A stretch of 64,000 nucleotides of DNA from Actinomucor elegans. Its lineage: Eukaryota > Mucoromycota > Mucoromycetes > Mucorales > Mucoraceae. Position numbers and translations under genes: made by a program. Positions 1 through 27,958 of the stretch are shown piece after piece. The stretch spans positions 124,001 to 188,000 of the forward strand of contig JAMSLZ010000021.1 of NCBI GenBank assembly GCA_026027325.1, in the 5' to 3' direction. Under the pieces are notes generated by a model, which was not told the DNA's origin, did no database searches, and saw only the letters and a list, made by a program, of their open reading frames with translations. Positions within the stretch are counted from its first letter, which is position 1; each line of letters starts with the position of its first letter.

Positions 1-1
1 G

Positions 2-7992: not shown

Positions 7993-8163
7993 GTAGGCAA
8001 GTTATGAAACAAGAACCAAGAAAAGCCACGATGCAAGAAAAGACCCTGAATTGGTGCGTAAAAGGAGGTATACCTGAGCGTGTTAATCAAAACTCAGCCG
8101 CATGAATGTACTATTTGGTGGAACTGACGCACTTGCCGAATCAATACAAGTTTGTTTGATTCT

Positions 8164-8175
8164 GGTGGAGGATAA
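8164..8175 (+). promoter_or_regulatory. Polypurine tract of Gypsy-1a
   Basis: The purine-rich GGTGGAGGATAA directly precedes the 3' LTR, the usual place for plus-strand priming in LTR retrotransposons. Gypsy-2 has a similar tract (GGGAGGGGATAA at 38768-38779). Confidence 0.75.
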
Positions 8176-8681
8176 TGTTGTAAACGCTCATAATTATATT
8201 AATAAGAGAATACTGTACAGATAGAAAATCGTATAGATATCCTTATATATAGCTGCAGAAGTGTATAAAGCATTATTACCAAGAACCAGAATGTAAATGA
8301 CTGTATTTGATTATGTTAAAATATCTTTATTTATATATCACTCTGAGCAAGTAGACGCTAATTGATAAATACTATCTCTCACACCAAATATTACATTCAA
8401 TACTATTACCTTTGGATATATTGATCCCGACACTCCTCGCCGCTAATCTTGGTCCGCTCATTTGGTTATTATCCCTGGTCTTCTTTATACGCAGTCCAAC
8501 CTTGTTCCTGGCAAATCGTAATATGAATTTAGAATCAAGTACCGACCGAGAAAAAGTATATAAGAGATGCGTTTTATCACCTTTTGACCAGTTAATCAAT
8601 TCTTGATCTCTAATAAAAAACTATCCACAGTTTTAAAAGTATTTCTATCTTCCAAAATCTTTATCTACCACCTTTACAACA
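8176..8681 (+). repeat. 3' LTR of Gypsy-1a
   Basis: 506 bp, the same length as the 5' LTR and with no difference seen by eye. It is followed by TSD gcatt and then the continuation of LINE ORF2. Confidence 0.95.
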
Positions 8682-9012
8682 GCATTGATCATGCCCTGAA
8701 CTTGTTGCCCTTGAAAGCATCCAATGGTCCACCGCCTTTCTGGTCTGCACTCCTTGAGATTCTCTATGTGATTGACACGCTGTGTCATCCTCTTGCTGCT
8801 ATCGTCCCAGATCCAGATCCTGGTGATGCCTGGTTTGCTGCTACTCGTACTATATAAACCTCTCCTTGGTTTATTGAGCCTCTCTTTCTCTCTGTTCTAT
8901 TGATGAACCAGCCTGTTTGTCTTTCAACTGCGCAGCCACGGTGGTAAGTGATTATCAAAGTTCCCAGCTGTTGGCTTGCCTTTTGGATCACTCAGAGCTG
9001 CAATAGTCTACT

Positions 9013-9032
9013 CACTATGGCGAAAATATTGT
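9013..9032 (+). repeat. CACTA left terminal inverted repeat
   Basis: 20 bp matching the reverse complement of 16372-16391 exactly. The subterminal motif acccataatattat follows at 9037-9050. Confidence 0.95.
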
Positions 9033-10628
9033 GTGCTACCCATAATATTATGTGGTAAAACGACGATTTTATTATCATTTACCTACTAATACTATAGATT
9101 TACCTACTAATAATAATCTGCGAACCAATGAAATTAGAGCAATTATTTTCTATGGCTGCGCAATTAACAGTGCTTTGCTCATTTATTAGTGGTTACTCCT
9201 AATATTAGTGGAAAGCAGACAATAATGTTATGGGTTTAGTCAATATTATAACATAAATTGACAATAAGAAAGAAAAGCCTGAACTCCATTTTATTTGCAA
9301 ACAATTTTTATGTATTCTTGTCTTTTGCCGATGAAAGCCAAATCTTGCAAACTTCTTATAAATGAGTACATGAAATTCTGATGCTTGTACGCAACAACAT
9401 AATCCTCGTTTATTTTATTTACTAAAATGAACTCTGCTTTTCGTTTCAACGATCTTTTATGTAAATTCCTAGAAACGTTTAATTTCAACGTTTGTCAAAA
9501 ATAATGTTGAACAATTGTCTTTCAAATGCGTTTATTATTCGTTGAAAAGTCTCTTATACAGGTCAGGTTGCAAAAAATTCTCTTGTAAATTACTCTTTTG
9601 GAAACAAGAACGAATCGCTAGTTCCATTTAATAAGCTGAGCACTTTCATTGCCGTGATTTAGCCTTTGGCTAATAGCTGTGTATTTAAAATGCTGAATGA
9701 CATTAAGAATGAGCTGCCATTAAGTGTCTAATTTACTCAATTTTATGTTTAGTAAAATTATAGAATAAAGAAAGAAAGAAAGAAAAAAAGAAAATACATT
9801 GCGTTAAAAAAAAAAGAAATACATTGCGTAAAAAAAAAGAAATATATTGCGTAAAAAAAGAGATAAATTATTGTGTAAAAAAAAAAATAGGTCAAGTAGC
9901 GATTATTAATTGCCAGTAATCTTAGTCATTATTGCTAGGCGGTTATTTAACTAGATGATTTATTGTCAAAATCATATATCCACTTCTCAAACTACAAAAA
10001 AACGCGTTCGTTTTTGGACTTTCGAGTAATTGATGATTATGATAGAATTCTTAATGACGATCGAAAGCTTCAAAAACATGCACGTTTTTTTAGGTGCTAG
10101 AAAACTACAATCGATGAACATTTTTGCTGTCTGTTGGAAAATTAATCCGCATTGCTTGATAATAAACTAATTTTACTATAAAGATAAACAAGAGCATTAA
10201 TCATATTTTACATTTGGTTTTAAAGATTAACTGGAGCAACTAAATAGTCAATTAACATTATTGAATGATGAATATAGAACTGTATAACTTGGGTTATCCT
10301 GGTTCTATATTTCTGATATTATGAAATAATTTCTTAAACATCAGGGAAATGGGTTAAATTTTTGATTAAGAAATGTTTTTACATTCTGTTGCAAGATTGC
10401 TAATACCTTTCTCTCGAATTAATAACATGATATATAAAAACGAGTTAAATTATCTATAGTTTATATCTACTACAGAAAGTGTAAATACCTATTTTACTTT
10501 TGCTATATTATGATGAAGTCCTTTTGGAGGGAAGCTTTATATTATTTTCGGTGGTTTAAATACATAATCAATTCAGAGAACAATTTTATTTCAAAATAAA
10601 ACGCTTTTTGCTCTTGTCTTCATGCTAT
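9033..10628. other. CACTA left arm, non-coding
   Basis: AT-rich sequence between the left end and the transposase stop codon. Near the tip it holds subterminal short repeats (ttacctactaata twice near 9080-9110). I see no supported gene; a 65-codon minus-strand frame at 9291-9488 has nothing recognisable. Confidence 0.7.
9770..9892. repeat. Minisatellite in CACTA left arm
   Basis: Four imperfect tandem copies of an about 25-bp unit with the core aaagaaatacattgcgt separated by A-runs. It begins with a short (aaag)n tract. Confidence 0.85.
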
Positions 10629-13600
10629 TTACAAACGACTTAATATGCCAGCATTTTGCTCTAGATCTTGTTTAAATATATGATGAGAGATGATCTTGAA
10701 CTCTTTCTCATTAGATTCACTTGAACGCACAAGACCTACACTGGCAACAATATCTTCAAACCGACAGACAGCGTAACTGTGTGCACCGCTACTGTGCAGC
10801 TCAACCAAAGCAATAGTCTTGTCATATTTGGTAGTTGCATTCTTTTTCGCTAAATCAACCAAAGCCAAATACTGTGGTCTACCATTGAATGAATGCTCGA
10901 AAAAGAAAACGATAGAACCAATGAACCAGCTTTCACGAATGGAATTATTTCGACTATTAACAAAGGTTGGTTAATCAAAGAGGTTTTTGTTCTTGAGCTA
11001 ATTACTTACTTCAAGTAGCTGGCAGTGATCATCACGTAATTGTTTCCTCGACGATATTCATTTATATGGCTTTTATACATGGTAGACGTATATACATTGC
11101 CATATGCCCAGGCACGACCAGCGATGGAAATACTATTCAACGAATCAATTTCAGCAATATTTACACCATTTGCTTCAGTACGGCGATAGTAATGCAATAG
11201 CGCCTTCAAAAAAGTTTGAGTGGAGACACCAAAGGGAAGAGTATCCACTGAAATATTACTAAAGGGAGCCCATAATTGTGGATCACTAGCATCACCAGAA
11301 GGGTTATTCCTGAAAGTGGATTCGCTGTATTTTCGAGGAGTGATCAGGTCAAGCTCAGTATGAACATCCCAAGTCTGGCTGTTTATATGATTACGCGTTA
11401 TGAGTCTTTCCAAGATATTACCAGCGTTTGCGCCAGCATCAACCTTTGACTTGATGAGCTTTTTGTATTTTCCGATGCTTCTTTCCATTGATCGGGCGGA
11501 ATATGCTCTCAACACACCTTGTTGTTTGATCATATAGACTATATGCGAAAGGTAGTGTTGAACAGGCTTGAATACACCGGAATGAATACGCTTTGCCTTG
11601 ATTTCTGCCAACAAAAATTCTTGCCATTCTTTGATATATCTTTGGAAAGTATGTAAGTAAACTAGATTTATGAGTACAAAAAAAATATATTTACCTTTCC
11701 ATCAGAATAAGGTCTTCAATAGAAAGTTCCCATTTAAGAGCCAATGCGACAGCTTTTGTCAGATGAATCAATGGTTTCTTAGCGGATTCTTGAATCAATT
11801 CAGGAACGAACAAGGTGGGAATCATATATAAGAAAATATCAATCCAGTCAACAGCACGTTTGCCACCACTCTTGATAATTGGATCTTCCCATTTGGATGA
11901 AAAGGATGTCGGTACAGTGGCTCTAGAAGCTTCAACAAGTTTACCAATTTTGATGAGCGATAATTTTGGAATATAGAAAGTATACGGCCATTCATCAGCA
12001 GACTTCAATCGGGCATCACTCAATTCATCTTCATTGGGCTTATATCGAGTTTTTCTTGCTGCATTGTACTCTTTACCCATGTCGACTGTCAGCATATTGA
12101 ATACGTGTTGAGCGATACCTTGTCCGAGAAGATGCATTTCGTCTAAACCAAAAAAAGTAGCGCCAGTAAAACTGGGAAGTATTGCAAATGGTGTTGCAGA
12201 CTTGATACTGTAGCTCTATGAGGTAAAAAGAAAAAGAAATGTTAAAAACTTGTAAAGATTAATGCTGATTATAGTACTTACATTCGCTGCATCTGGGGAA
12301 ATGAAATCGTTTCTGCTTCTGATCTCATTGTCGATCGTTAAAAAACAATTATGATAATCATGACGTTCAGCTTGGACACGACAAATACGGCAACCAAACG
12401 TAGCCATATGACCAATATGATTTGCAAGCTCAGCTGCAGCAGGAAGATCACCAGTAGCCATCACCAAGTTGACTTTAGCTTGACAAACAATTACACCATC
12501 CTTTTGTACAAGCATGCCTTTGGTAGACAGAGCATGAAACTCATCAATAATAGGCTTTAAAAAGGTATGCATGTACTTTGGGTAGTTTGGACCTGGCAAG
12601 ATCGCCAATTGAAGCATGTATTCGTCTTGGTAGCGGTATTCTGGGGGAATGTTCATATTCAAGAGATGGATGATTGTTAACTTGTCCCCTTTATGATTCT
12701 TGCTAGTACAGAAACCATCGACAAAAAGAACCATTGCGACATCATCTTCACCGGAAAACAGAATGCTATTATCCTTAAAGTACTTGTATGCTGCACCATC
12801 AAAGTAATCTTTATATTCACCGTCAGTTGATTTATAGTTGTAGCGGTATTTCATCAAGTCTCTTGTCTTTGCATTCGCAAGCATTTGAGCGACTTGTTCA
12901 CCAATAGGAAGCATCTTCATAGAGCGACGAGGTTTACCATGATCATCAAAGCGATTTTCTTTACAAGCAGGGTTTTTACATTGAATAGTCTCTATATCTT
13001 CCTTTTCAAACAGCATGCAACCATTGACGCAGACATCATGAAAATGACATTGAATATTGGTTTTTGCTTTAAGAGTACGATCCAAGGTATCAGGGAACAT
13101 GAGAGTGGATGGTAGGTAACCTATATATAATGGGAATAAAAGCTGATAAGTACTTTTTTTTAACTCTATTTGAATAGATACATACCCAATCCATCGGTTT
13201 TACGGCTCTCTTCATTGTTTTTGATTATGGTACGCATTAGATAGACAAGTTCTCTTTGAGCCTCTCGAGGAATACCATACGTGTCGCAAATATCTCTCAA
13301 TTGGATGCTATTTAATTCCGTATTGGTGAAAAGGTTTTGATCCGAGGATTTGACGTTGTAAGCAATTGGAGTAGGCTCTATTTCAAACAAGGTATATTGT
13401 TAAATTAAAAGCTTTAGTAATATATCTGTTAACTCACCTTGGACAGGAATGCTAGCTTCTTGCGTTTGGACGACCCTTTGTTTTCTATGATCACGATTAT
13501 GGCTATAGTGATTACTCCTAGCTTTAACAGTTTTGAATGGCCTCAAACAAGTAGCGCAAGTATATTTATATGGTGTAGCAGAAGAGGAAACTTTGCCCAT
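10629..13600 (-). CDS. CACTA Tnp2-type transposase, six exons
   Basis: I read six exons: 13600-13438, 13377-13186, 13120-12282, 12215-11695, 11639-11010 and 10953-10629. The introns are 56-71 nt with GT-AG ends. The spliced length is 2670 nt, exactly 890 codons (889 residues plus stop), and every junction keeps the frame, which supports the model. The N-terminus has a C2H2-like motif (CATC...H...H). The middle matches the Transposase_21/Tnp2 family of CACTA elements: an Asp near residue 252 in MVLFVDGF, then ILPGPNYPKY, ATGDLPAAAEL and GCRIC, and further on FFGLDEMHLLGQGI. It would bind and cut the element ends in the nucleus. No internal stop is seen. The exact start and the last exon are the least certain parts. 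Confidence 0.9.
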
Positions 13601-14005
13601 TTAAAGATAAGTAAAAACAAGTAAATATATCGAATTAATGAATAGCGGTTTTGTTGTTTAGAAAAAGCAGGTCTTAAATACGTTTGCTTGGTCTACAATT
13701 GACAGAGTTCTCAATGGTAATTCATTGTTTTAGGCTGTTGAATCCTTTGAACTAATCAGCTTTTCATATTACTCAGCCTTCCAGATTATTCAGATATCGA
13801 ATACATTTTAATGGATCCTTATGATTTCTAATCAAGCTAATTCCTTTCCAAGTCAGTCATACCTGTCAGTAAGCTTACTTTCCAGAAAGCTCTTTGGACA
13901 TTAGTAAGGATTACTAATGGATAAATGGTAAAGTACGCTTATAAAACAGTTAAATAGCTCAAATCATTCAATCACTTTTCTTTATAATATATTTACTTTA
14001 TAGCT
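13601..14005. promoter_or_regulatory. Divergent promoter region of the CACTA element
   Basis: About 400 bp separates the start codons of the two divergent genes. A TATA-like cttataaaac lies near 13940, upstream of the plus-strand gene. I see no clear TATA box for the transposase side. Confidence 0.5.
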
Positions 14006-15088
14006 ATGTCAAACAACAACAACAATAATTGGAGCGTCTACTTTGAGAAGATTGAACAAGAAATCTTAATCAACCGTCGTTTAATTCAAGATTTGATCCA
14101 AATATTAGCACCTCTATTTCCTCGAGAAGCTTCGAGGGTTTCATCTAACGAAGAAATTGAACAAGCACTTGACGATGGTACAATCATATCTGAAGCATGT
14201 TACTACATTCAGTTTTATTAACCTCTTAGCTTGTCATATATAGCTGAACGAGAAGCAATTGCAAATGCTTTGAATCCTAATTTACGTAGTAAACGGTCAA
14301 TCCCAAAAGTGCTAGAAGAAGCAAAAGTGCGTTATCAACAAAAGGCAACCAAGACAAATGTCACCCCTTCTGCACCATTAAGGTTATATGCCCTCTTGAA
14401 ACACCTCAAGTATATAAAAGGCCAACAAAATGAACTGACCGATGATGATGTTCAACCGCAATACAATACGTTGAAATACTTGGCAAGAGATGTCTTGAAA
14501 GACATGGAAAGGGCAAATATAAATATTGTTGGTAAAACTTGGAGTGAAATTGGCGAAGAGGATACCAGCATTCAAGAACGTTATGCTTTGCTTTTAGAGA
14601 AACGTGCTTTAGATGTGGGCTTGCATCTGCATCTCTGTGTAGAGATGTGGGCTGCCAAGTTACTTTTATCTGAAGCACTCAAAAACAAGAAGACTGTACG
14701 TACCAGAAGTAATTCTGCTGAAGAAGGTGAAAGTCAACAAAATCAAGAATCTGTTGAAGACAATGAGATTGAATCGTTCTTCAGGTTAGATGCTTTTTTA
14801 TTTCTGTTTTTATATCTTTATTAATATGCTTGTTATGCAAATAGTGTGGATAATCAGCATATCCTTGTTGATCGTCTAGCTACTTCTGTTGCTCCAGTTG
14901 GTCTTGCATCTCCAATTGCTAGCTTGTTGGATCTACATTCTGCTCGCTCATCAACGAAAAGAAAAGCCATTACGGTTCAACCTGACGTTGGTGAAGATGA
15001 GGAGGCTGGATCTGACAATCGTTCCAAAGAAGCGGATTCCAATAAGCGTAAACCACGCTCTAAGAAAAATACAAAAAAAACGAAATAA
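14006..15088 (+). CDS. CACTA second (accessory) protein, three exons
   Basis: Exons 14006-14198, 14244-14784 and 14845-15088 total 978 nt, exactly 326 codons (325 residues plus stop). The 45- and 60-nt introns have GT-AG ends and both junctions keep the frame. The protein starts with an Asn run, has a central helical region rich in charged residues, an acidic Glu/Gln segment, and a basic Lys/Arg C-terminus (KRKPRSKKNTKK) that looks like a nuclear localisation signal. I do not recognise a family. By position it could be the counterpart of the second protein of other CACTA elements (TnpA in En/Spm), which binds subterminal repeats; that is inference from position only. Confidence 0.8.
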
Positions 15089-16371
15089 ATATAGACGTTT
15101 TTTTATTGGTTTAAGTAGCTGACGTAGCATTTTTCTGCGGCTTTTCAGTATTAAGAAAAACTTTTTTACACCAATCTTGAGTTTCTTTCTTTTTTTTCGT
15201 TTGCTAAATTGGCACATTAAACGTAAGGTTTCTTGACATTTGTCACTCTTATTGCGCACAACACTTTAACTGAAGCTTCTGTATAATAGGAATTAACCTC
15301 AATGTCAGCTTGTAATTGTGTTTTTTTTTCCAAGCTTTCGAATATTTCCCTCGTTCTTAATGTCGTAATTATCTATAAATACGTCGTCATTCATACTGCT
15401 TATATTCTTATACTGACTTGTATTCTTAAATACTTATACCACTTCAGTAATACTTATAGCCAGTAATGCCATATAGCTTTTGAACCTTTACTATTAGTTT
15501 TAAAGCTAATAACCATTAAGTAAGTGCAATGATTACTAATCCATTAATTTCTTTGTATATTAATCTAATACTGTTATAATAGATTTAGTTGTGTATATAT
15601 ACAAGACGAAGACTATTAAAACTGTAGCCCAGTGAATTATAATTGATTGTGTCTGATATAGTGTTGGTAAGTCTGTAGCAATAGCGAGTTTCATTCAAGA
15701 ATCTAATCATTACTTACTTTAGGAAAAGATGATTAAAATATGCTATTATACAAGCGTGGGCCATTCTTCTAAAGGTTAGTTCAAATATACTCTTAAAATA
15801 TTGTTTCATCAACGATAACTGACATTATTTATACAGTTATTTGCTTAATTCATTTACCTGTTACTTGCCAGTGGGACATAAATTCTTTTATACTTGTATG
15901 ACAATAAGGTAAGTTAAATACTGTTCGTGTGTGATAGAAAGCTGGTTATTGTATATTCAGCTATTGAAGGCTAGTGTGTATTAGAGTAATATCTGTTGAA
16001 GTTATATATTATATAAATAAAAAAAATAGCAATTAAATTATTATCTGAATAACCAAAATGACTATAATATTATTAGTAGTGTATTGTGAATATATGATAG
16101 AAAACTAATAATAATATTGATTATAAATCATCAATATGGAGGGATTAATCCATACTATTATTGACTGGAAACCACTACTATTATACAATTTACCCATAAT
16201 AATATTGAAGGAAAACCCTTAATATTATAGTATTTACCCATAATATTATCGAATAAGAGTCACTAATATTATCAACCGCCGAAAAAACACTGCCTAGAAA
16301 TTGACAATAATTATTAGCAGAACTATAGTCGATTTTACCCCTAATATTATCAACTTTTGGGCAAAAAACCG
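15089..16371. other. CACTA right arm, non-coding
   Basis: AT-rich sequence downstream of the accessory gene. Its last 200 bases carry several copies of a subterminal motif resembling acccataatattat (around 16185-16355, also in inverted form), mirroring the left tip. No gene is supported. Confidence 0.7.
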
Positions 16372-16391
16372 ACAATATTTTCGCCATAGTG
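16372..16391 (-). repeat. CACTA right terminal inverted repeat
   Basis: 20 bp, exact reverse complement of 9013-9032, followed by TSD act and the rest of the LINE B 3' UTR. Confidence 0.95.
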
Positions 16392-16549
16392 ACTGGTTCT
16401 CGCTCTTGTCTTTAACCTTTTTCTCCCTTGTGGTTCTCAGGGTTTTTATACTTTTTTCTATGTTTATATTAAACACTTTTTCATATAGTTAGGCTAGATG
16501 CTCTATAGAGTTTGCCCATATAACTACTTATTAATAAAATATAATCTTT

Positions 16550-16567
16550 AAACTGAGCTACATCCCC
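16550..16567 (+). repeat. LINE 3' tail (copy B)
   Basis: aaactgagctacatcccc, the antisense tRNA-Ala-like tail, at the junction with ORF1-only element C. Confidence 0.88.
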
Positions 16568-17045
16568 ACTCTTCTTCCGCTAACCAAATTTTTCTACACT
16601 TGTTGTAGTGAAAAATTTTTTAAGCAGTTTAAACACGACTAACCTCAGCAAAACTAATAACCAATCTATCAAAACAGTACTGGCCAACATTTCTGTGTCT
16701 TCATCTCCTTCATCTGACAAAATCTCGTCAAATTCTGAACACATTTGTCCGATTTCGCCATCTCTCCATTGTGAAAACATTACGAAGCAAGATCGCAACA
16801 TCATCTCTTCCGATCAAGTTCAAACTTTGTCAGAACCTTCCTCTCCGCCCCAAAAGCACGCTGAATTTTTTTCATTGGGTGTTAAAAGGCAGTTTTCATC
16901 GCTTTCACCACCTCTTTTTCAAGCCGATTTATTTTCACTTAAAAAAACGTCGACCAGCTACTCACACCTCAAGCCAACCAAACTACAGACACCACCAGCC
17001 TTCAGTTTGGATTTTTCACCAGCTACTGCTCCCACTACCACCAAA

Positions 17046-18062
17046 ATGACCGGTATTGTTGATCAATCAGCATTACAACCATTCATGCAAGAGGTCAATC
17101 AGCGTTTGAGTCGACTTGAAGACGCTTATAGCGAAATCTTTCGACTGCAAAAGGCTCTTGCAGAATCTGAATCTGCTCGCCGAGCTCTCGAAGCTCAAGT
17201 TGCCTCTCTTTTGGCCCCTAAAAAGGCTAAAATCACCGCCAAGGCTGTTACTCTTCCTCTTCCTTCTTCTGGTGCTGCTGTTGTTGGTAAGTCAACAGCT
17301 AGCTATGCTTCTGTTGCTGCCACCAATGTGTGCAGCAAGAAACCAAAAAAGAAGACTTTGCTTCCACCACCTCGCCGTGCTGCCGCCACAATTGCTCGCC
17401 TCTTTGGCCCTAACACTGGTATCCCTCCAGGATATCAGTTTGTGTACTACTCTACCTCTGTTCGCCGTCCGTTGAAAGAACTGCGTCAGTCCCTTCAGGC
17501 CATTGGCTTGAACAACTCTCGCATTCTGGATATACAATATCCTACAAGTCGTGTTGTTTCGTTCCTGTTGCATAACGACTATACACTTGAATTTACTACA
17601 GCTATGCATGCCAATGGCCGTGGTGGTTCCCCTTGCCTGGATTTTGATCCTTACGACCCTGCCAACCTCAAGGATCCCAAGTTTGCTTCTCTTTCTGGTG
17701 ACTTGCGAGTCCAAAAGGCTCGCGAGGTTGAAAACCTTCGTTGTCTCCGTGCTGTCTCGTTTGTCCGTCGTCCGCTTCGTGTCTCTGTTGCTCGTTCGTT
17801 TCTTGAAAAAGAGCGAATAAACCAAAAGCAATTCGATTCCATTTTGGCTGAAGAACTCGCTGCCCGCTCTGCTTCTTCTCCTCCTGGTCCCACCAGCTCC
17901 TCCTCAAGTCCACCCTCTGATGAAAAGAGGTTAGCAAGGAAACAGCGCTTGTGCTATCTAAGCTATCTCCTTCATCATGACAAGGAAACTGCGTCTCTGT
18001 TGTCTCGCGTCCCCTCTCCGACTGTCTCTCAAGTGGAAGAAGCGGAGATGATGACCGAGTAA
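17046..18062 (+). CDS. ORF1-type RNA-binding protein of the ORF1-only element
   Basis: I start it at ATG 17046 (good aaaATGacc context), giving 338 residues. The same frame is open back to 16608 but has no ATG there. The N-terminus has a heptad-like stretch (RLSRLEDAYSEIFRLQKALAESESARRALEAQ in outline) suggesting a coiled coil, then an Ala/Lys-rich linker. A conserved C-terminal half (YVYLG-equivalent YQFVYYSTS, DFDPYDPANLKDPKFASLS, FVRRPLRVSVARSFLEK) is clearly homologous to the LINE ORF1 at 18735-19679. By analogy with LINE ORF1 proteins it would coat element RNA. The last 50 residues are Ser/Pro-rich and differ from the LINE version. Confidence 0.82.
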   Translation: MTGIVDQSALQPFMQEVNQRLSRLEDAYSEIFRLQKALAESESARRALEAQVASLLAPKKAKITAKAVTLPLPSSGAAVVGKSTASYASVAATNVCSKKPKKKTLLPPPRRAAATIARLFGPNTGIPPGYQFVYYSTSVRRPLKELRQSLQAIGLNNSRILDIQYPTSRVVSFLLHNDYTLEFTTAMHANGRGGSPCLDFDPYDPANLKDPKFASLSGDLRVQKAREVENLRCLRAVSFVRRPLRVSVARSFLEKERINQKQFDSILAEELAARSASSPPGPTSSSSSPPSDEKRLARKQRLCYLSYLLHHDKETASLLSRVPSPTVSQVEEAEMMTE

Positions 18063-18098
18063 TTCCCCCGTTTTTTCTCTCGCTCGCCGCTTTGGTCG

Positions 18099-18133
<35 letters not shown>

Positions 18134-18545
18134 TGATCTTTCTTTTCTTCTGGTCCTAGTACCCTTTCCAACGCTGTTTGCTTTTGCTTCTTGTTCTCTC
18201 CTTTTTTTCTTGCTTTTTTTGTGGATTCCCGGATGTTGGTGTATGTCTTTTGGTTTGGCTGCGGTGTGTCTGTCGAGGTGTTCCCCATGTGAACAGTTCC
18301 CACCCCCAATCTTCTGCTGCTTCTCATCTTTCATCTTTTTTATGTTCTTCTTTTCTTTCCCGTAGTTTTTTGTTGTCTTTTTATAGTTTGGTCTAAACCT
18401 CCATTAGGAGCTTAGGATTTATTGTACAACCTATAATATAGACTTTTTGCTGCTTTGCTCCTGGTATTGCAACTAAATGCTCCATAGAGCGAATGCATAT
18501 AGAATACTATCAATAAACAAAATCTTTAAACTGAGCTACATCCCC
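18063..18545 (+). other. 3' UTR and tail of ORF1-only element C
   Basis: Pyrimidine-rich on the + strand, with a (tc)n microsatellite at about 18106-18134 that is much shorter in copy G. It ends with the common tail at 18528-18545. No gene is supported. Confidence 0.8.
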
Positions 18546-18734
18546 CACTCTTCTTTCGCTTTTGAAAACTTTTTTCAAAAATCCACTTTTTCAAAGCCGA
18601 ATATCTCAACAACTACTATACATCCATCTATAAAAATTGCACATCCATCTTCGCCTCGCCAAGTACTATCTGCAGTTTTTTTTTCAGAACATTCCATCAA
18701 GTTTTCGACATCTTGAAGTTTTCTCCATTTCGAA

Positions 18735-19679
18735 ATGTCCAATGTTCAACATGCATCTGAGCCATCTGGCCTAATTGACCAAATGCAATTGCAGCAAATG
18801 GTCTTTTCTGTCGTTCAACAAGTGCAACAACACCAAACTGTTTTTCAAGAGCTTCAAGCTTTGAAAGACACAATTCAAACCCTACAGTCAGAAAAACAAG
18901 CCCTTGCTGATGAAAACCAGCAATTACGTACCGAGATCTCAAAGCTAATGTCCAAAATCTCAAATCCCATTGCCAATGTCGATCAGCCATTGGTTAATTC
19001 TCAAGTCTCCCCTGAAGTAAAAGTGGCTAAACCCACATTTGCTTCTGTTGCCGCTGCTCCTACTCGCCAAAAGAGTAAGAATTCTGGTTCTGTTTCGCTT
19101 AAGAAACGCATTGCTGCAGCCCGTGTGTTCAAGACCGCAGAAGCCCAAGGCCCACAAGGTTTTACCTACGTGTATCTTGGCCGCTCTCGCAAGTTTGACC
19201 GTTTGGAAGTCCGGTCCCGTCTCCGTCGTGCTGGTGTTGACACTGGCCGTGTGATTGATGTCTGTTTCCCCGCCTCTGGTGTCATTGGTATCTTGTTACA
19301 TACTCAGTATGTAGAAAAGTTCACTGAGCTTATGACTATTGCCGAAGCCGAATTTATCAAGGATTTTGATCCATTGGACCCTGCCCATTTAGCTGATCCA
19401 CGCTATGACTCTCTTTCACTGGATGCTAGGGCTAATGAAATGGCCAAAATCGTTCACTCTCGATGCATCAATACATTGTCCTTTGTACGTCCCTTGCTCG
19501 TCTCCTCTGTTGGTCGCTCCTTTGTTGAGAAAGGATGGATGGATGATGAAACTCTTGACCATGTCATGGTGGATGCTCGTCGCCGGCTTGCTGAACAAGA
19601 TCCTAAGAAGGCTGCTTTTGCCTTCCGTCGCTCTGGTAAAGACATCTCTGGTGATAGCGATACTGAAATGTCACAATAA
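18735..19679 (+). CDS. LINE ORF1 protein (subfamily 1)
   Basis: 314 residues. The first 80 are Gln/Leu-rich with a heptad pattern (LQALKDTIQTLQSEKQAL in part), probably a coiled coil for trimer or multimer formation. A basic linker (QKSKNSGSVSLKKR) follows, then a globular part (YVYLGRSRKFDRLEVRSRLRRAG in outline; FDPLDPAHLADP; FVRPLLVSSVGRSFVEK) that may be an RRM-like or other RNA-binding fold. I recognise it by position before an APE-RT ORF2 and by homology to the ORF1-only proteins, not by a named domain. The stop codon overlaps the ORF2 start (taatg), suggesting that ORF2 is translated by termination-reinitiation. Confidence 0.88.
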   Translation: MSNVQHASEPSGLIDQMQLQQMVFSVVQQVQQHQTVFQELQALKDTIQTLQSEKQALADENQQLRTEISKLMSKISNPIANVDQPLVNSQVSPEVKVAKPTFASVAAAPTRQKSKNSGSVSLKKRIAAARVFKTAEAQGPQGFTYVYLGRSRKFDRLEVRSRLRRAGVDTGRVIDVCFPASGVIGILLHTQYVEKFTELMTIAEAEFIKDFDPLDPAHLADPRYDSLSLDARANEMAKIVHSRCINTLSFVRPLLVSSVGRSFVEKGWMDDETLDHVMVDARRRLAEQDPKKAAFAFRRSGKDISGDSDTEMSQ

Positions 19680-22600
19680 TGACATCTTCAGTCCCTCCTT
19701 TCATTTCTGCTACTCCTGTCACTCCTTTGAACAATCCTGTCCGCTCCTTCTCTCTTGCATTGTGGAATGCCAATGGTCTTCGGGTCACTACCATCCACGA
19801 TGTACTCTCTCATGCTCTCTCTTGTGATATCCTCCTGATTACTGAAACTTGGCTTACCTCTGGGTTGATCCCTACCGATTGGTCTCAATATCATCTGTAC
19901 GGTCAAACTGTCACTAATGCCAATGGACGCGGCTCAGGTGGTGTCACTGCTCTCATCTCTCCTCACTGTCCTTTTACTGTCTCTCAACTTCCGTCTTACA
20001 ATGCATATACTCTGTCGATCAAGGTTGACAAAGTCAATGTGCATTGTGTCTACTTTCCACCCAGTCTCTCGCGTGATCTGGTGCTCTCTTCTCTGAATTC
20101 ACTGCCTCTTCATTCTGATACTATTATCTGCGGTGACTTCAATGCACGCCTTGGTGATGTTACTGGTGATTCTGCAACAAATCCTCGTGGTCTAGCTCTA
20201 CTTCCTTGGATTGAAGAGCGCAGTCTCTCAGTGTTGAACTCTTCCTTGGCGTATGGTATTGATACATACTGTACCTTCAGAAATGGTGCTGTGGCGAGCA
20301 GTATCATTGACTTGTTCTTGACCAACATTGGAGGTTCTGGTATGGTGTCTCCTTCTCTTTCTGTTGCTTCTGATCTCTCTTTGGGCTCTGATCATCGTTT
20401 GCTTCAGTTGGGGTTCGAGTACATTGCTGTTTCTGGTGGCTCTTCTGGTGTAGGTGACTCTTCGGTGCTGGCTCCTCGTAGGACATGGAACCTCAGTCGG
20501 CTGGCTGAGTCTGAGCCTTTGGCTCTGTTCCATACTCGGTTTCGGTGTCTGGTTGCTCCTTTGAAGGATATTCTTGCTGGTCTGGTTGGTTCTCCTCCGG
20601 ATAGTCGTCCACCTATAGATTCACTCAATGCATCTCTGAATGAGTGTCTCTATCAGGCTATGGATGCATCCATTGGGTCTAAGGCTCCCCGTCCTGGTCA
20701 TTGGAAGAAGTACTGGACTGCTGATCTGGAAGCTGCTGCTCGAGAACGCGATCGTCTCTATTGCCGTTGGCGTCATTCGTTTGGTGTTGACAAGGCTTAT
20801 TACTGGCATCTCCATCTACAAGCCCACAAGTCGTTTCGTCGTGCTGTTGCTGCTGCCAAAAGGTTATCCTGGAAAAACTTTTGTGCTTCTCTGGAAAAGG
20901 ATTTCACCAAAGCTACTGCAACCATGGCTCGTCTCAAGCGTCGCAAAGAATCTACTGCTACATATAGCCACCCAGATGGTCCCCAAGCCTCTGTGGATAC
21001 AATGGCTAGTCACTTGGCTTCCGTATATGATGGTTCTCTGTTGGTTACTGCTTCTCGACCTTCTTTTGATTCTGACTTTGCTCTTGAAACACCATACATG
21101 GTTGATGATGAGGTTGCCGATAGCTTGTTCTCCGTGGAGGAATTGGTCTTTCACATCAAGAAGCTTCCAAATCGCAAAGCTCCTGGTCCGGATCACATCA
21201 AGGCTGAAATGCTCAAAGCTGTTGCTGAACTTCTGGCTCCTGTACTCTCTCTGCTGTTTCTGGTATGCTTCCAATGGAGTTATACACCGTTGATCTGGCG
21301 TCAGGCTCAAGTGTTTCCGATCTTCAAGAAAGGTGATGCAGATGATCCAGCCAACTATAGACCCATCTCCTTGACCTCTGTTATGCGAAAACTCTTTGAG
21401 ATATCGTTATCTTCATGTCTGTATGAGCACTCTCCGGCTTTGGATCTTGCACAAGGTGGTTTCCGTCCTCAGCGTAGTCCTCTGGATCAAGCCCTCTGCT
21501 TGCATGACTTGATGCATGACTACTTCTTGGCCCACCATCACTACCCTGTGGTGGCTTTCTTGGATATCAAAGCTGCATATGATACTGTGGATCGACGCGT
21601 TATTTGGGATGCTCTTGCCAACTCTTCTCTGCCTCGTGCTGTTCTTGGTTTGCTAGTCAACTTGTTTGACGATGTATCTATTTCAGTATTGATCAACAAC
21701 CATTCTTCGGCTGCATTTGCACCTGCTACTGGGGTTCTCCAAGGCTCGGTGTTAAGTCCACACCTGTACTCCTTGTACATTAACTCTCTGCCTGGTTTAC
21801 TGCGCTCAACTGCCTCTGCTACTGCAAGTAAAGTGTCTCCGCCTGGTACCATGAGCTATGTTCCTGTCAACTGCCTCTTGTTTGCTGATGATGTGGCAAT
21901 CTTTGGCTCGAAATATGAGGTGCAAGAAATGCTTGATTTGGCTGCTGACCATTCAAAATCTCTCGGTTACCGCTGGAATCCTACCAAGTGTGCTGTTCTG
22001 AACGCTCCTTCCGTGACATCTTCCACTTCAACAAATTTTAGATTGACTCTTTACGGGGTTGCTCTACCATCTGTTGACGAGTTCACTTATCTTGGCATGC
22101 CCTTTAGCAAGAAAGGTCTCTTTGGTCCCGGTATTCTGGCAAAACGATCTGGTGGTGCTATCAAGACTATGGCTCTCTTGAACTCTGTCGGTGTGAACCG
22201 GAATGGCTTTTCTCTGTTGCTCTGTGCTCGGTTGTATACAGCCTTTATTCGACCCAAGTTCGAATATGGGCTTGCCATCTCTCGACTGTCCGCTACTGAC
22301 TTTACTGCCCTGGATCAGCTCCAGAATCGTCTTGTTGGTATGTTCGTTGGCTCTCGCTGGTTCAATGTTGCAAAGCATCTGACTTGTATCCCTTCGATGA
22401 AGCACCGCTACAACGTTCTTGTGACCAAGTATGCTTTGCGTTCTCAGTGGCTTCCTGATGACTGCCTGGTGTCCATGCTGAATTCAGGTGATTCTGGTAT
22501 CCCGTATACTCGGCTGGAAAAGCTTCTAAAATGCAATCCCATGTATCTCGCACTCCCTAGTCCGGTTCCAACAGTCTCGCGTCTCCGCTCTTGGTTTTCA

Positions 22601-23077
22601 CAATACTGGCAAAACTTGTTTGATGACCAAATGGCTGCTGCTGCTACATCTGGTAGATCTGTTCTCCTGCGTGCTTGTCGACCATGTACTTCTCGGCCTG
22701 ATCCAATCTTGTATCTCCCAATGTCTCGCACTGCACGTAGTCGGTTGGTTCGATGGCGTCTTGGTAGGTTCACCAACCGTGATGAACTGTGTCCCTGTTT
22801 CTCTGGCTCCCGACTCTCTCGAGACCATTTTGTCTTTGATTGCCGCGGTATTGACCCAAGCCTGTTCTCTCAACTGCCTGATACCCCTCCGGATGTCAAT
22901 GCCATCGATCATGCTCTCAATTGCTTGCCTACCAAAGCCTCTGCTGGTCCACCTCCTTTCTGGCCTGCTCTTCTTGAACTGCTCTATGTGATTGACACGC
23001 TGTGTCATCCTCTTGCCACACTTGTTCATGATCCAGATCCAGGTGATGCTTGGTTTGCTGCTACTCCTGCCATATAA
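19679..23077 (+). CDS. LINE ORF2: APE-type endonuclease and reverse transcriptase
   Basis: 1132 residues, intact. The N-terminal exonuclease-endonuclease-phosphatase domain shows WNANGL (residue 29 on), the catalytic Glu in TETWL (E56), CGDFNAR (D153, N155) and SDHR (D238, H239). The reverse transcriptase follows: NRKAPGPD, FKKGDADDPANYRPISLTS, AFLDIKAAYDTVDR, GVLQGSVLSPHL and FADD (D737, D738). The end has a Cys/His cluster (CPCF...DHFVFDC, about residues 1037-1056). No RNase H is seen. The protein nicks target DNA and primes reverse transcription of the element RNA. The layout fits APE-type LINEs such as those called Grem-LINE in Mucorales; that name is inference. All key residues are present. 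Confidence 0.95.
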   Translation: MTSSVPPFISATPVTPLNNPVRSFSLALWNANGLRVTTIHDVLSHALSCDILLITETWLTSGLIPTDWSQYHLYGQTVTNANGRGSGGVTALISPHCPFTVSQLPSYNAYTLSIKVDKVNVHCVYFPPSLSRDLVLSSLNSLPLHSDTIICGDFNARLGDVTGDSATNPRGLALLPWIEERSLSVLNSSLAYGIDTYCTFRNGAVASSIIDLFLTNIGGSGMVSPSLSVASDLSLGSDHRLLQLGFEYIAVSGGSSGVGDSSVLAPRRTWNLSRLAESEPLALFHTRFRCLVAPLKDILAGLVGSPPDSRPPIDSLNASLNECLYQAMDASIGSKAPRPGHWKKYWTADLEAAARERDRLYCRWRHSFGVDKAYYWHLHLQAHKSFRRAVAAAKRLSWKNFCASLEKDFTKATATMARLKRRKESTATYSHPDGPQASVDTMASHLASVYDGSLLVTASRPSFDSDFALETPYMVDDEVADSLFSVEELVFHIKKLPNRKAPGPDHIKAEMLKAVAELLAPVLSLLFLVCFQWSYTPLIWRQAQVFPIFKKGDADDPANYRPISLTSVMRKLFEISLSSCLYEHSPALDLAQGGFRPQRSPLDQALCLHDLMHDYFLAHHHYPVVAFLDIKAAYDTVDRRVIWDALANSSLPRAVLGLLVNLFDDVSISVLINNHSSAAFAPATGVLQGSVLSPHLYSLYINSLPGLLRSTASATASKVSPPGTMSYVPVNCLLFADDVAIFGSKYEVQEMLDLAADHSKSLGYRWNPTKCAVLNAPSVTSSTSTNFRLTLYGVALPSVDEFTYLGMPFSKKGLFGPGILAKRSGGAIKTMALLNSVGVNRNGFSLLLCARLYTAFIRPKFEYGLAISRLSATDFTALDQLQNRLVGMFVGSRWFNVAKHLTCIPSMKHRYNVLVTKYALRSQWLPDDCLVSMLNSGDSGIPYTRLEKLLKCNPMYLALPSPVPTVSRLRSWFSQYWQNLFDDQMAAAATSGRSVLLRACRPCTSRPDPILYLPMSRTARSRLVRWRLGRFTNRDELCPCFSGSRLSRDHFVFDCRGIDPSLFSQLPDTPPDVNAIDHALNCLPTKASAGPPPFWPALLELLYVIDTLCHPLATLVHDPDPGDAWFAATPAI

Positions 23078-23387
23078 ACCTCTCCTTGGTTTATTGAGCC
23101 ACTCTTTCTCTCTGTTCTATTGATGAACCAGCCTGTTTGTCTTTCAACTGCGCAGCCACGGTGGTAAGTGATTATCAAAGTTCCCAGCTGTTGGCCTGCC
23201 TTTTGGATCACTCAGAGCTGCAATAGTCTACTGGTTCTCTAACTTGTCTTCAACCTTTTTCTCCCTTGTGGGTCTCAGGGTTTTTTATACTTTTTTCTAT
23301 GTTTACTTTAAACACTTTTCATATAGTTAGGCTAGATGCTCTATAGAGTTTGCCCATATAACTACTTATAAATAAAATATAATCTTT

Positions 23388-23424
23388 AAACTGAGCTACA
23401 TCCCCCAAACTGAGCTACATCCCC
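23388..23424 (+). repeat. Two LINE tails in direct tandem
   Basis: Copy D ends with the tail at 23388-23405, and a second complete tail occupies 23407-23424 with only a C between. The second looks like a LINE insertion truncated to its tail alone, or target-site slippage. Confidence 0.85.
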
Positions 23425-23606
23425 TTTCGCTTTTGAAAACTTTTTTCAAAAATCCACTTTTTCAAAGCCGAATATCTCAACAACTACTATACATCCATCT
23501 ATAAAAATTGCACATCCATCTTCGCCTCGCCAAGTACTATCTGCAGTTTTTTTTTTCAGAACATTCCATCAAGTTTTCGACATCTTGAATTTTTCTCCAT
23601 TTCGAA

Positions 23607-24566
23607 ATGTCCAATGTTCAACATGCATGTGAGCCATCTGGCTCAATGGACCAAATGCAACAGCCAATGCAGTTCCAGCAGCTACAGCAAATGGTGTTTT
23701 CACTTGTTCAGCAAGTGCAACAACATCAAACATTATTTGAAGAGCTCCAGACCTTGAAAAATGAGATTCTTGGACTCAAAACCGAAAACCAGGCTCTGGT
23801 TAATGAAAATAACCAACTTCGAGCACAACTCTCTGCTGCCACCGCTCGTAGTCCACCGCAGGATGTCGCTTCTCCCGCCCAGGAAAAAAATGGTGCCCGG
23901 TCTTTCGCTGCCATTGCTGCAGCCGCTGTAAAAAAGGACAGCCGCCCCTCTCGCCCTGCTGCCGTTTCCCTAAAGAAACGTATAGCCGCTGCTCGCGCCT
24001 TCAAAACCCTTGAGGCCCAGGGTCCTCAGGGTTTTACCTATGTTTATCTTGGTCGATCTCGCAAACTTGATCGTACTGAAGTCCGCTCTCGGTTACGTCG
24101 CGCTGGTGTTGACACTGGTCGTGTGTTAGATGTCTGTTTCCCTGCTACTGGTGTCCTTGGTGTCCTGATACATACGCAGTATGTTGAAAAGTTTACCGAG
24201 CTTATGACTACGGCTGAAGCTGAGTTCATTAAGGATTTTGATCCTTTAAACCCAGCCCATCTTGCTGACCCCAAGTATGCTTCTCTCTCAGCCAATGCTC
24301 GTGAAAACGAGATGGCTAACCTCGTTCACTCTCGCTGTATCAGCACTCTGGCGTTCATTCGACCAGTGATGGTCCCTTCTGTTGGTCGATCCTTTGTGGA
24401 ACTTGGATGGATTGATGATGGTGATCTTGATCAAGCCATTAAGGAAGCTCGCTCTCGTCTTGCCGAAAAGGATCCCAAGAAGGCTGCTTTTGCATTCCGT
24501 AGTTCTGGTGCTTTGCCATCTGGTGAAGACGTTACCGGTGATAGCGATACTGAAATGTCACAATAA
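23607..24566 (+). CDS. LINE ORF1 protein (subfamily 2)
   Basis: 319 residues, homologous along its length to the subfamily 1 ORF1 at 18735. It has a Gln-rich coiled-coil start with a short insertion (MQQPMQFQQLQQ), an Ala/Pro-rich linker, then the conserved half with SLKKRIAAARAFKT, YVYLGRSRKLDRTEVR and FDPLNPAHLADPKYASLS. The linker differs most and the C-terminal half least. The stop overlaps the ORF2 start in taatg. Presumed role: binding and packaging of element RNA. Confidence 0.88.
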   Translation: MSNVQHACEPSGSMDQMQQPMQFQQLQQMVFSLVQQVQQHQTLFEELQTLKNEILGLKTENQALVNENNQLRAQLSAATARSPPQDVASPAQEKNGARSFAAIAAAAVKKDSRPSRPAAVSLKKRIAAARAFKTLEAQGPQGFTYVYLGRSRKLDRTEVRSRLRRAGVDTGRVLDVCFPATGVLGVLIHTQYVEKFTELMTTAEAEFIKDFDPLNPAHLADPKYASLSANARENEMANLVHSRCISTLAFIRPVMVPSVGRSFVELGWIDDGDLDQAIKEARSRLAEKDPKKAAFAFRSSGALPSGEDVTGDSDTEMSQ

Positions 24567-27500
24567 TGACATCTTCAGTCCCTCCTTTCACTCCTTCTGA
24601 TACCCCCGTCCGCTCCTTTTCTCTTGCATTGTGGAATGCCAATGGCCTTCGGGTCACTACCATCCATGATGTACTCTCTCATGCTCTCTCTTGTGATATC
24701 CTCCTGATTACTGAAACTTGGCTTACCTCTGGGTTGATCCCTACCGATTGGTCTCAATATCATCTGTACGGTCAAACTGTCACTAATGCCAATGGACGTG
24801 GCTCAGGTGGTGTCACTGCTCTCATCTCTCCTCACTGTCCTTTTACTGTCTCTCAACTTCCGTCTTACAATGCATATACTCTGTCGATCAAGGTTGACAA
24901 AGTCAATGTGCATTGTGTCTACTTTCCACCCAGTCTCTCTCGTGATCTGGTGCTCTCTTCTCTCAACTCACTGCCTCTTCACACTGATACTATTATCTGC
25001 GGTGACTTCAATGCACGCCTTGGTGATGTTACTGGTGATTCTGCAACAAATCCTCGTGGTCTAGCTCTGCTTCCTTGGATTGAAGAGCGCAGTCTCTCAG
25101 TGTTGAACTCTTCCTTGGCGTATGGTATTGATACATACTGTACCTTCAGAAATGGTGCTGTGGCGAGCAGTATCATTGACTTGTTCTTGACCAACATTGG
25201 TGGTTCTGGTATGGTGTCTCCTTCTCTTTCTGTGGCATCCGATCTGTCTTTGGGCTCTGATCATCGGCTGCTTCAGTTGGGGTTCAAGTACATTGCTGTT
25301 TCTGGTGGCTCTTCTGGTGTAGGTGACTCTTCGGTGCTGGCTCCTCGTAGGACATGGAACCTCAGTCGGCTGGCTGAGTCTGAGCCTTTGGCTCTGTTCC
25401 ATACTCGGTTTCGGTGTCTGGTTGCTCCTTTGAAGGATACTCTTGCTGGTCTGGTCGGTTCTCCTCCGGATGCTCGTCCATCTATAGATTCACTCAATGC
25501 ATCTCTGAATGAGTGTCTCTACCAGGCGATGAATGAATCCATTGGGTCTAAGGCTCCCCGTCCTGGTCATTGGAAGAAGTACTGGACTGCTGATCTGGAA
25601 GCTGCTGCTCGAGAACGTGATCGCCTCTATTGCCGTTGGCGTCATTCATTTGGTGTTGACAAGGCTTATTACTGGCATCTTCATCTGCAAGCTCACAAGT
25701 CGTTTCGTCGTGCTGTTGCTGCTGCAAAAAGACTCTCCTGGAAGAACTTTTGCATGTCACTCCAAAAGGACTTTGCCAAGGCCACTGCTACCATGTCTAG
25801 ACTGAAACGCCGGAAAGAAACCTCTGCTACGTATGCTCATCCTGATGGCCCTCAAGCATCAGTCGATTCTATGGCTACACACCTGGCTACAGTGTATGAT
25901 GGTTCTCTTTTGTCGACTGCTTCTCGTCCCCTGGCTGCTCCTGACTTTGGTTTAGAAGTGCCTTTCCTGGTGTCTGATGAAGAAGTGTCTTGGATTTTCT
26001 CGGTGGAAACCTTGGTTGAGCATATCAAACAGTTGCCGAACCGCAAAGCTCCTGGTCCTGATCATCTAAAAGCTGAAATGCTCAAGGCTGCTGGTGATTT
26101 ACTTGCTCCTGTTCTCTCTTTGCTATTCCAGGTTTGTTACCAATGGTGCTATACACCGGTTCTATGGCGTCAAGCCCAGGTTTTTCCTATCTTCAAGAAA
26201 GGTGATGCTTCTGATCCTGCCAACTACAGGCCAATTTCTTTGACTTCGGTGATGCGTAAGTTGTTTGAGATTACCATTGCACAAAGCGTCTATGACCATT
26301 CGCCTTCTCTAGATCTCGCACAAGGTGGCTTCCGTCCCATGCGTAGTCCCCTCGATCAAGCCCTCTGTCTGCACGACCTGATGCACAACTACTTCTTGGT
26401 TCATCACCACTATCCTGTTGTTGCTTTTCTGGATATTAAGGCTGCCTATGACACTGTTGATCGACGTGTGATCTGGAATGCTCTTGAGAACTCATCTCTG
26501 CCTCGTCCTCTCCTTGGTCTGCTAGTCAATCTATTTGATGATGTATCCATCTCCGTGTTGATTGCCAACCACATCTCTTCCTCTTTCTCTCCTGCCACTG
26601 GTGTACTCCAAGGTTCGGTGTTGAGTCCTCACTTGTATTCTTTATACATCAACTCCTTGCCCGAGCTCCTTCGGTCTGAAGCTTCGGATACTACTGCTGT
26701 GGTGTCTCCTCCTGGATCTGCTGAGGCTGTGGTCATTAACTGTCTTCTGTTTGCCGACGATGTGGCGATCTTTGGTTCCAAACATGAGGTGCAAAATATG
26801 TTGAATCTAGCTGCTGACCATTCAAGAGTACTGGGCTATCGTTGGAATCCAACCAAGTGTGCTGTCCTGAACGCTCCTTCTGTGACCTCCTCTACGTCTA
26901 CCAACTTTAGACTGAGTCTCTATGATGTTCCTCTGCCTGCAGTGAATGAGTTCACGTATCTTGGTATGCCATTCAACAAGAAAGGTCTTGATGGTCCGGG
27001 TATCTTGGCTAAACGGTCTGGTGGTGCAGTCAAAACCATGGCTCTACTGAATTCGGTTGGTGTCAACCGCAATGGCTTCTCTCTCTTGCTCTGTTCTCGG
27101 TTATATACTACCTTCATTCGGCCCAAGTTTGAGTACGGTCTTGCTATATCTAGGCTCTCTGCTGCTGACTTTACTGCTTTGGATAACCTTCAGAACCGGT
27201 TAGTTGGTATGTTTGTTGGCTCCCGATGGTTCAATGTCACGAAGCACATCACTTGTATCCCTTCCATGAAGCATCGGTACAATGTCCTGGTTACCAAGTA
27301 TGCCCTACGATCGCAATGGCTTCCTGATGATTGCTTGATATCATTGCTGAACTCTTCTCGAGACAATTCTCCTTCTGGTCTTGGCTACACTCGATTGAAC
27401 AAGCTTCTATACCTCAATCCTATGTATATGGCATTGCCCAATCCTGTACCTACAGCCTCTCGTCTCAAGTCCTGGTTCTCTGGCTACTGGCAAGATCTCT

Positions 27501-27958
27501 TTGACAAGCAAATGGCTGCTGCTGCTCACACTGGTAAATCGGTTCTTTTGCGTGCTTGTCGGCCCTCTACTTCAAAGCCTGATCCAATACTGTACCTGCC
27601 TATGACTCGCGCTGCTCGCAGTCGTCTTGTTCGATGGCGGTTAGGCCGTTTCGCTAACCGTGATGAATTGTGTCCTTGTTTCACTGGTTGCCGGCTCTCT
27701 CGAGATCACTTTGTGTTCAATTGCCGTGGCATTGATCCTCGCCTTCTGTGCCAATTACCTGCTGCTCCGCCAGATGTCAATCGCATTGATCATGCCCTGA
27801 ACTTGTTGCCCTTGAAAGCATCCAATGGTCCACCGCCTTTCTGGTCTGCACTCCTTGAGGTTCTCTATGTGATTGACACGCTGTGTCATCCTCTTGCTGC
27901 TATCGCTCCAGATCCAGATCCTGGTGATGCCTGGTTTGCTGCTACTCCTACTATATAA
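24566..27958 (+). CDS. LINE ORF2 (subfamily 2): endonuclease and reverse transcriptase
   Basis: 1130 residues, intact. The endonuclease motifs are the same as in D (WNANGL, TETWL, CGDFNAR, SDHR). RT motifs: NRKAPGPD, FKKGDASDPANYRPISLTS, AFLDIKAAYDTVDR, GVLQGSVLSPHL and FADD. The C-terminal Cys/His cluster reads CPCFTGCRLSRDHFVFNC. The first about 390 residues are nearly identical to D, but from about residue 395 (after AVAAAKRLSWKNFC) the two proteins diverge strongly, including the thumb, so the copy looks mosaic. No frame damage is seen and it could supply enzyme to truncated and ORF1-only copies. Confidence 0.95.
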   Translation: MTSSVPPFTPSDTPVRSFSLALWNANGLRVTTIHDVLSHALSCDILLITETWLTSGLIPTDWSQYHLYGQTVTNANGRGSGGVTALISPHCPFTVSQLPSYNAYTLSIKVDKVNVHCVYFPPSLSRDLVLSSLNSLPLHTDTIICGDFNARLGDVTGDSATNPRGLALLPWIEERSLSVLNSSLAYGIDTYCTFRNGAVASSIIDLFLTNIGGSGMVSPSLSVASDLSLGSDHRLLQLGFKYIAVSGGSSGVGDSSVLAPRRTWNLSRLAESEPLALFHTRFRCLVAPLKDTLAGLVGSPPDARPSIDSLNASLNECLYQAMNESIGSKAPRPGHWKKYWTADLEAAARERDRLYCRWRHSFGVDKAYYWHLHLQAHKSFRRAVAAAKRLSWKNFCMSLQKDFAKATATMSRLKRRKETSATYAHPDGPQASVDSMATHLATVYDGSLLSTASRPLAAPDFGLEVPFLVSDEEVSWIFSVETLVEHIKQLPNRKAPGPDHLKAEMLKAAGDLLAPVLSLLFQVCYQWCYTPVLWRQAQVFPIFKKGDASDPANYRPISLTSVMRKLFEITIAQSVYDHSPSLDLAQGGFRPMRSPLDQALCLHDLMHNYFLVHHHYPVVAFLDIKAAYDTVDRRVIWNALENSSLPRPLLGLLVNLFDDVSISVLIANHISSSFSPATGVLQGSVLSPHLYSLYINSLPELLRSEASDTTAVVSPPGSAEAVVINCLLFADDVAIFGSKHEVQNMLNLAADHSRVLGYRWNPTKCAVLNAPSVTSSTSTNFRLSLYDVPLPAVNEFTYLGMPFNKKGLDGPGILAKRSGGAVKTMALLNSVGVNRNGFSLLLCSRLYTTFIRPKFEYGLAISRLSAADFTALDNLQNRLVGMFVGSRWFNVTKHITCIPSMKHRYNVLVTKYALRSQWLPDDCLISLLNSSRDNSPSGLGYTRLNKLLYLNPMYMALPNPVPTASRLKSWFSGYWQDLFDKQMAAAAHTGKSVLLRACRPSTSKPDPILYLPMTRAARSRLVRWRLGRFANRDELCPCFTGCRLSRDHFVFNCRGIDPRLLCQLPAAPPDVNRIDHALNLLPLKASNGPPPFWSALLEVLYVIDTLCHPLAAIAPDPDPGDAWFAATPTI

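Follow-up and report, generated by a model that had tools for sequence, protein, structure and literature searches.

The LINE array studied here raises the question of why its units end in the same 18 bases, AAACTGAGCTACATCCCC, and what these bases have to do with tRNA-Ala. The window, that is, the whole stretch of 64,000 nucleotides analysed (G000:C14:124001-188000), carries this tail exactly at 16550-16567 on the plus strand. A search allowing up to two mismatches found eight copies in the window, all of them exact and all on the plus strand, while 100 dinucleotide shuffles of the window gave a mean of 0.01 tails and none of the 100 reached eight. Across the 36.5-Mb assembly of 27 contigs, where all counts are lower bounds, at least 73 exact copies were present versus 0 for the reversed pattern. 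The last 15 bases of the tail, searched with at most one mismatch, gave at least 85 matches against 0 for the reversed control, and these comprise the 73 exact tails, one interrupted tail at C1:35261 and 11 sites reading TTGAGCTACATCCCC. The last base of the interrupted tail is part of an LTR-type insertion with ATCCC on either side, and its inclusion brings the total to at least 74 tails.

The 11 TTGAGCTACATCCCC sites are 11 tRNA-Ala(AGC) genes. ARAGORN called a tRNA-Ala(AGC) at each of them, and one of the genes used as query returned the same 11 loci and no others, 100% identical over 73 bases. Based on this 73-base identity and on the 7-bp acceptor stem, counted by eye, the mature 5' end was placed at G1. 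The reverse complement of the tail is identical to tRNA-Ala over exactly 14 bases from G1 (GGGGATGTAGCTCA). The tail is thus composed of AAAC from the LINE and TGAGCTACATCCCC from tRNA bases 1-14, which in the copy at 16550-16567 occupy 16550-16553 and 16554-16567, respectively. At base 15, read on the LINE-sense strand, all 74 tails have C versus T in all 11 tRNA-Ala genes, indicating that the C was copied from the element. The original prediction had placed the tail at this spot and described it as the 5' end of tRNA-Ala read antisense, up to and including the first mature base; the eight exact copies and the comparison with the genes bear out both statements. It had also extended the match to bases 1-16 and staked itself on tRNA-Ala genes that begin with those 16 bases. 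Not one of the 11 does, which contradicts it to the letter, and the match is 14 bases long.

At eight of the 11 tRNA-Ala genes, a LINE that runs antisense to the tRNA starts with the base adjoining G1. The adjoining sequence is the 5' end of an element termed A in four cases, that of a second element, B, in three, and a 5'-truncated A-like copy in one, the first ~107 bases of which have no match to the reference copy. The other three genes are empty, with the AT-rich 5' flanks TTATATGGTAAAGACC, TTATAGTAAGAAAACC and ATATAGTAGTAAGACC. The AT-rich stretch just upstream of G1 is alike in all three empty genes (L036, L039 and L041). Sequence past the tRNA 3' end is different at every locus, demonstrating that the tRNA-Ala copies are separate genes. 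At six of the eight occupied genes, ARAGORN drew the gene one base longer at each end, its 5' end falling one base inside the LINE. The antisense orientation foreseen for these LINEs was found, whereas the disruption of the gene was not, the 73-nt tRNA sequence being intact at all eight occupied genes. With these corrections, the idea of one LINE insertion spot holds: the spot is the first base of the tRNA-Ala gene, and the gene sequence is left intact.

The window itself contains no tRNA detectable by ARAGORN or Rfam, and its array starts 3.2 kb to the left, at a minus-strand tRNA-Ala (C14:120727-120799). Directly after this gene, at G000:C14:120800, begins a LINE A unit whose 3' part enters the window (1-1658, tail 1641-1658), and all units are on the plus strand. 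It is followed by a 5'-truncated LINE unit with other mobile elements inside (1659-16567, tail 16550-16567), by an element B of 1978 bp that encodes an ORF1-like protein only (16568-18545, frame 16584-18059, tail 18528-18545), and by a full-length LINE A of 4860 bp (18546-23405, ORF1 18717-19676, ORF2 19667-23074, tail 23388-23405). Then comes a 19-bp micro-unit consisting of C plus AAACTGAGCTACATCCCC (23406-23424), which may be an insertion cut down to the last few LINE bases and the 14 bp. The next units are a diverged LINE A copy lacking its first bases, 83% identical over 4.4 kb (23425-28286, tail 28269-28286), and a 5'-truncated LINE A unit split by an LTR-type retrotransposon (28287-39804, LTR-type frame 31954-35325, tail 39787-39804). 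A further element B, the first bases of which are set apart by a ~0.76-kb insertion (39805-42537, tail 42520-42537), precedes a LINE A copy in eight separated pieces (42538-61865), after which no tail follows within the window.

Other mobile elements are present as well. A chromodomain Gypsy-type LTR element with 300-bp direct end repeats, 100% identical, occupies 2516-8475, and a frame matching Transposase_21 lies at 12216-13199. Another chromodomain Gypsy-type LTR element, on the minus strand and with its frame split in two, was found at 46697-51606. The broken LINE copy also holds a DDE_Tnp_1_7 transposase frame (55529-57403), presumably piggyBac-like. In addition, at C1:53890, window position 39805 and C22:2131130, a tail is followed by LINE-5'-like bases and then by differing sequences, as if other elements repeatedly entered the first 10 LINE bases.

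LINE A carries ORF1 and ORF2 over its 4860 bp and has no LTRs. In Pfam searches, its ORF2 matched RVT_1 (E 2.1e-27) and Exo_endo_phos_2 (E 2.9e-10), the APE-type endonuclease being N-terminal. Among solved structures searched with phmmer, the best match of ORF2 was LINE-1 ORF2 (71 bits), followed by 8gh6 (66 bits), which we take to be an R2, and a chain labelled R2 (50 bits). Relatives of the A proteins occur in Mucor, Rhizopus, Phycomyces and other Mucorales (for ORF2 in Mucor, Rhizopus and Phycomyces), and no relatives were found in viral contigs by ORF2 or by the tail plus four LINE bases. The protein of a flanking gene likewise has relatives in Mucor (40-42% identity) and one in Pilaira (36%), besides one identical match and two further proteins at 71% and 63% identity. 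The tRNA-adjacent copy on C25 is identical to the window copy 18546-23405 at 4860 of 4860 bases, as is the tRNA-adjacent copy on C14 at all 1658 of its bases inside the window. Judging from these identities, the A copies are young and A has been active recently.

Element B has one long ORF on its strand, without a Pfam domain. Its protein shares 35% identity with ORF1 of A over 185 aa, and the last 52 nt of B and A, the 18-nt tail included, are 86.5% alike. Relatives of the B protein were found in Mucor velutinosus, M. mucedo and M. circinelloides, among others, indicating that B is a lasting ORF1-only lineage. With an ORF1 homologue, a LINE-type 3' end and no reverse transcriptase, B fits an ORF1-only LINE partner, which we take to be HAL1-like. 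B shares its target and 3' end with A, and it is most likely mobilised by the enzymes of A. As a non-autonomous partner it has kept a long open frame (window 16568-18545 and 40570-42537).

The specificity of these elements was assessed from both ends. Counting gave 51 type A 3' ends (at most one mismatch) and 18 type B 3' ends (exact), and all 69 join the tail without a gap, in agreement with the expectation that every unit end carries it. This count omits 34 A-type matches with two mismatches (reversed control 18), taken as background, and one B-type match with two mismatches (reversed control 4). One sequence, TTAATAAATTTTAATCTTT, accounts for fourteen of the 34 and had raised the suspicion of a second LINE family with another tail, but the 10 of these matches that were read are one unrelated repeat without the tail. 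Conversely, five of the 74 tails have no counted 3' end; in four of these the 3' end bears a small deletion, and the fifth is the micro-unit. Solitary LINE copies that keep the tail at unrelated sites, which would have spoken against the original prediction, did not appear among the counted 3' ends.

At the 5' side, 43 of 47 A-type ends lie directly after a tail (39) or after tRNA-Ala (four), and so do 15 of 16 B-type ends (12 and three, respectively). Among the A-type exceptions, three have other sequence directly upstream (C1:41413, C1:54992 and C21:51513), of which only C1:41413 shows an evident cause, an LTR-type insertion flanked by a short duplication of its own; the remaining one is a weak two-mismatch match on C11. 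The B-type exception is the window copy that holds the ~0.76-kb insert. The 5' junctions vary by a few extra or missing bases, with 11 extra in two copies, while the 3' junction is invariant. Of 63 other tRNA genes scored from 2052 candidates, none lies within 10 kb of a tail, and the closest tail is 13.5 kb off. Considering that A combines a reverse transcriptase and an endonuclease with a single site (69/69 counted 3' ends, and the same base of a multicopy gene in 8/11 cases) and a target-site duplication, it is a target-specific non-LTR retrotransposon, and we are highly confident that it targets tRNA-Ala(AGC) genes sequence-specifically at their 5' end.

The array on C27 carries information on the far side of the insertion. 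It begins at a tRNA-Ala (891568-891640) and has tails ending at 893618, 905245 and 910114, the last of which (910097-910114) is followed by ATATAGTAGTAAGACCA, the 5' flank of the empty tRNA-Ala at C27:1133232. Genome-wide, the 16-mer TATAGTAGTAAGACCA is matched exactly at two places only, the end of the C27 array and this empty gene. With up to two mismatches it has 38 matches, fewer than the reversed control (97), so that only the two exact matches carry weight. Such a native-like flank follows the last tail in one of eight tRNA-anchored arrays, and the gene it was compared with is a paralogue in the same genome. The C27 array has the 14 bp of tRNA on both sides, the same 14 bases as in all 74 tails; such an order would result if the element entered a tRNA-Ala gene and duplicated 14 bp of the target site. 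The C is fixed even beside the native-like flank, which means that the target gave at most 14 bases there and the element gave the C. The first nick would therefore most likely fall between bases 14 and 15, which we take to lie inside the A box of the tRNA gene, close to the "near position 16" of the original prediction.

These observations suggest the following pathway. The APE-type endonuclease of A would most likely nick the tRNA-sense strand after base 14 (GGGGATGTAGCTCA^A), and the freed 3' end at the nick would prime reverse transcription of the LINE RNA. The second strand would then be cut just outside base 1, 14 bp from the first nick. Repair would yield an intact tRNA-Ala, an antisense LINE starting at base -1, a 14-bp copy of bases 1-14 and, beyond it, the old 5' flank. 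In keeping with target-primed reverse transcription, several 5'-truncated copies have CATCCCC immediately before their first base. Since each tail repeats the 14-bp site, arrays could grow by insertion at tails, and the arrays now seen would be the product of tandem duplication and of further insertions, whether beside the tRNA or at a tail. The tails themselves may plausibly serve as targets, and an identical order of units would also arise if every insertion fell beside the tRNA.

A 14-bp target-site duplication would be enough to explain the 14 tRNA bases of the tail. These bases might instead be part of the LINE RNA as read-through sequence, whose pairing with the nicked tRNA strand would make priming precise; the tail would then be carried and not only duplicated. 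We give this explanation slightly less than an even chance. It would account for the absence of poly(A) between LINE and target, for a 3' junction that is the same in 74/74 tails, and for the element's C as the invariable first base outside the 14 bp. In both A and B an AATAAA, read by eye, precedes the end by ~15 nt, which would allow RNAs to terminate in the tail or beyond it, and two B copies on different contigs with an extra GCTACATCCCC at the 5' junction suggest an RNA start in an upstream tail or tRNA. However, all targets carry the same 14 bases, and plain duplication therefore leaves the identical sequence at every site; no off-target copy that would tell the two apart was found. The two processes are compatible and may act together. 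Recognition could also rest on the Pol III machinery rather than on DNA sequence, as in TRE5 and TRE3, Dictyostelium elements that insert at a distance from many kinds of tRNA genes. The position at the tRNA 5' boundary and the sparing of the gene would suit this idea, but A has an exact position, with 8/8 occupied genes joined at the same tRNA base and an invariant 3' junction, and only tRNA-Ala(AGC) was found hit, against 0/63 other tRNA genes scored, making guidance by Pol III improbable.

Four LINE copies at G000:C22:701186-718325 have in common a CCCCC 5' junction private to them, and twice in succession the spacing is 4872 bp, which points to a probable tandem duplication within this array. 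If unequal exchange or segmental duplication were the only source of arrays, tails would never act as targets. We consider this unlikely: array units mix A, B, 5'-truncated and 83%-identical copies, and neighbours that differ in family, truncation point and divergence would need many separate insertions. Copies are also indistinguishable, where compared, both beside the tRNA (unit 1) and in mid-array. By position, 51 of the 74 tails belong to same-strand runs downstream of a tRNA-Ala gene, with no gap above ~20 kb, and for the other 23 no tRNA-Ala was found at the array start (C1:15-67k, C7, C15, C21 and C22:2.13-2.14 Mb). The tRNA at the 5' end of eight arrays could invite the reading that the gene was captured as part of the LINE, for example as a promoter. 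The tRNA stands beside the first unit of an array only, the sequence past it differs per locus, three genes have no LINE, and a native-like flank follows the last C27 tail, all of which renders capture extremely improbable.

LINEs specific for other tRNAs are already known. Dewa is a Tx1-clade APE element. It is sequence-specific at one kind of tRNA locus, as A is, but this locus is the tRNA-Leu spacer of a fish, the zebrafish, and the passages of PMC3706591 cited here report no arrays for it. The same work describes Dada-tA, a DNA transposon inside tRNA-Ala (PMC3706591). NeSL-1_TV at tRNA-Pro, LIN15_SM at tRNA-Arg and LIN25_SM at tRNA-Glu are, like A, each specific for one kind of tRNA gene; they are placed among relatives of the NeSL clade, whose members have a restriction-like endonuclease (PMC4640811), whereas the APE-type domain at the ORF2 N-terminus sets A apart from this RLE-type group. 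Dp_NLTR-A of Dictyostelium purpureum inserts 2-6 bp upstream of the first base of the mature tRNA; unlike A, it has an RNase H and a variable position, and the cited passages of PMC5006619 state no restriction to a single tRNA.

For the cleavage pattern, a parallel comes from R1 of Drosophila, in which ancestral-type copies have a 14-bp target-site duplication and the top strand is cut 14 bp downstream of the first nick (PMC2718515). R1 is target-specific, like A and B, and has variable 5' junctions, some with extra target sequence, although its target is the 28S rDNA and that of A is tRNA-Ala (PMC2718515). SART1Bm is likewise specific for its repeat, with possible annealing of the RNA to the target, but its target is the TTAGG telomere repeat and it ends in poly(A), which A lacks (PMC7265360). 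Within Mucorales, Grem-LINE1 of Mucor denotes L1-like LINEs that are numerous in pericentric regions (PMC7377519); the word "tRNA" is absent from the main text of PMC7377519. Among the matches listed in a search with most subscription journals outside its scope, no title or abstract opening named a LINE that targets tRNA-Ala, nor a fungal LINE specific for any tRNA. A, an APE-type LINE of a Mucorales-like fungus, would thus extend the target-specific tRNA LINEs to tRNA-Ala.

A is thus an APE-type LINE with an exact, short and gene-sparing target present in all 11 tRNA-Ala(AGC) genes found, which makes it useful for studying how APE-type endonucleases gain specificity and a lead for safe-site insertion. 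At eight of these 11 identical genes the LINE replaces the native 5' flank and leaves the coding sequence unchanged; the occupied genes offer a natural experiment on the extent to which Pol III genes depend on upstream sequence. The findings also suggest a tRNA gene as the possible starting point of LINE arrays in Mucorales. More tentatively, as a possibility we hold to be somewhat doubtful, the 14 bases may be at once the landing site and the LINE's own 3' end, so that each insertion would leave a working tRNA gene and add a landing site, and tRNA-Ala genes could become the seeds of long arrays, maybe of heterochromatic or pericentric blocks bounded by tRNA-Ala genes. As a separate observation, two arrays at G000:C8:318940-389712, each with an outer tRNA-Ala start, converge on 356.7-365.2 kb, a layout that recalls a centromere flanked by tRNA genes.
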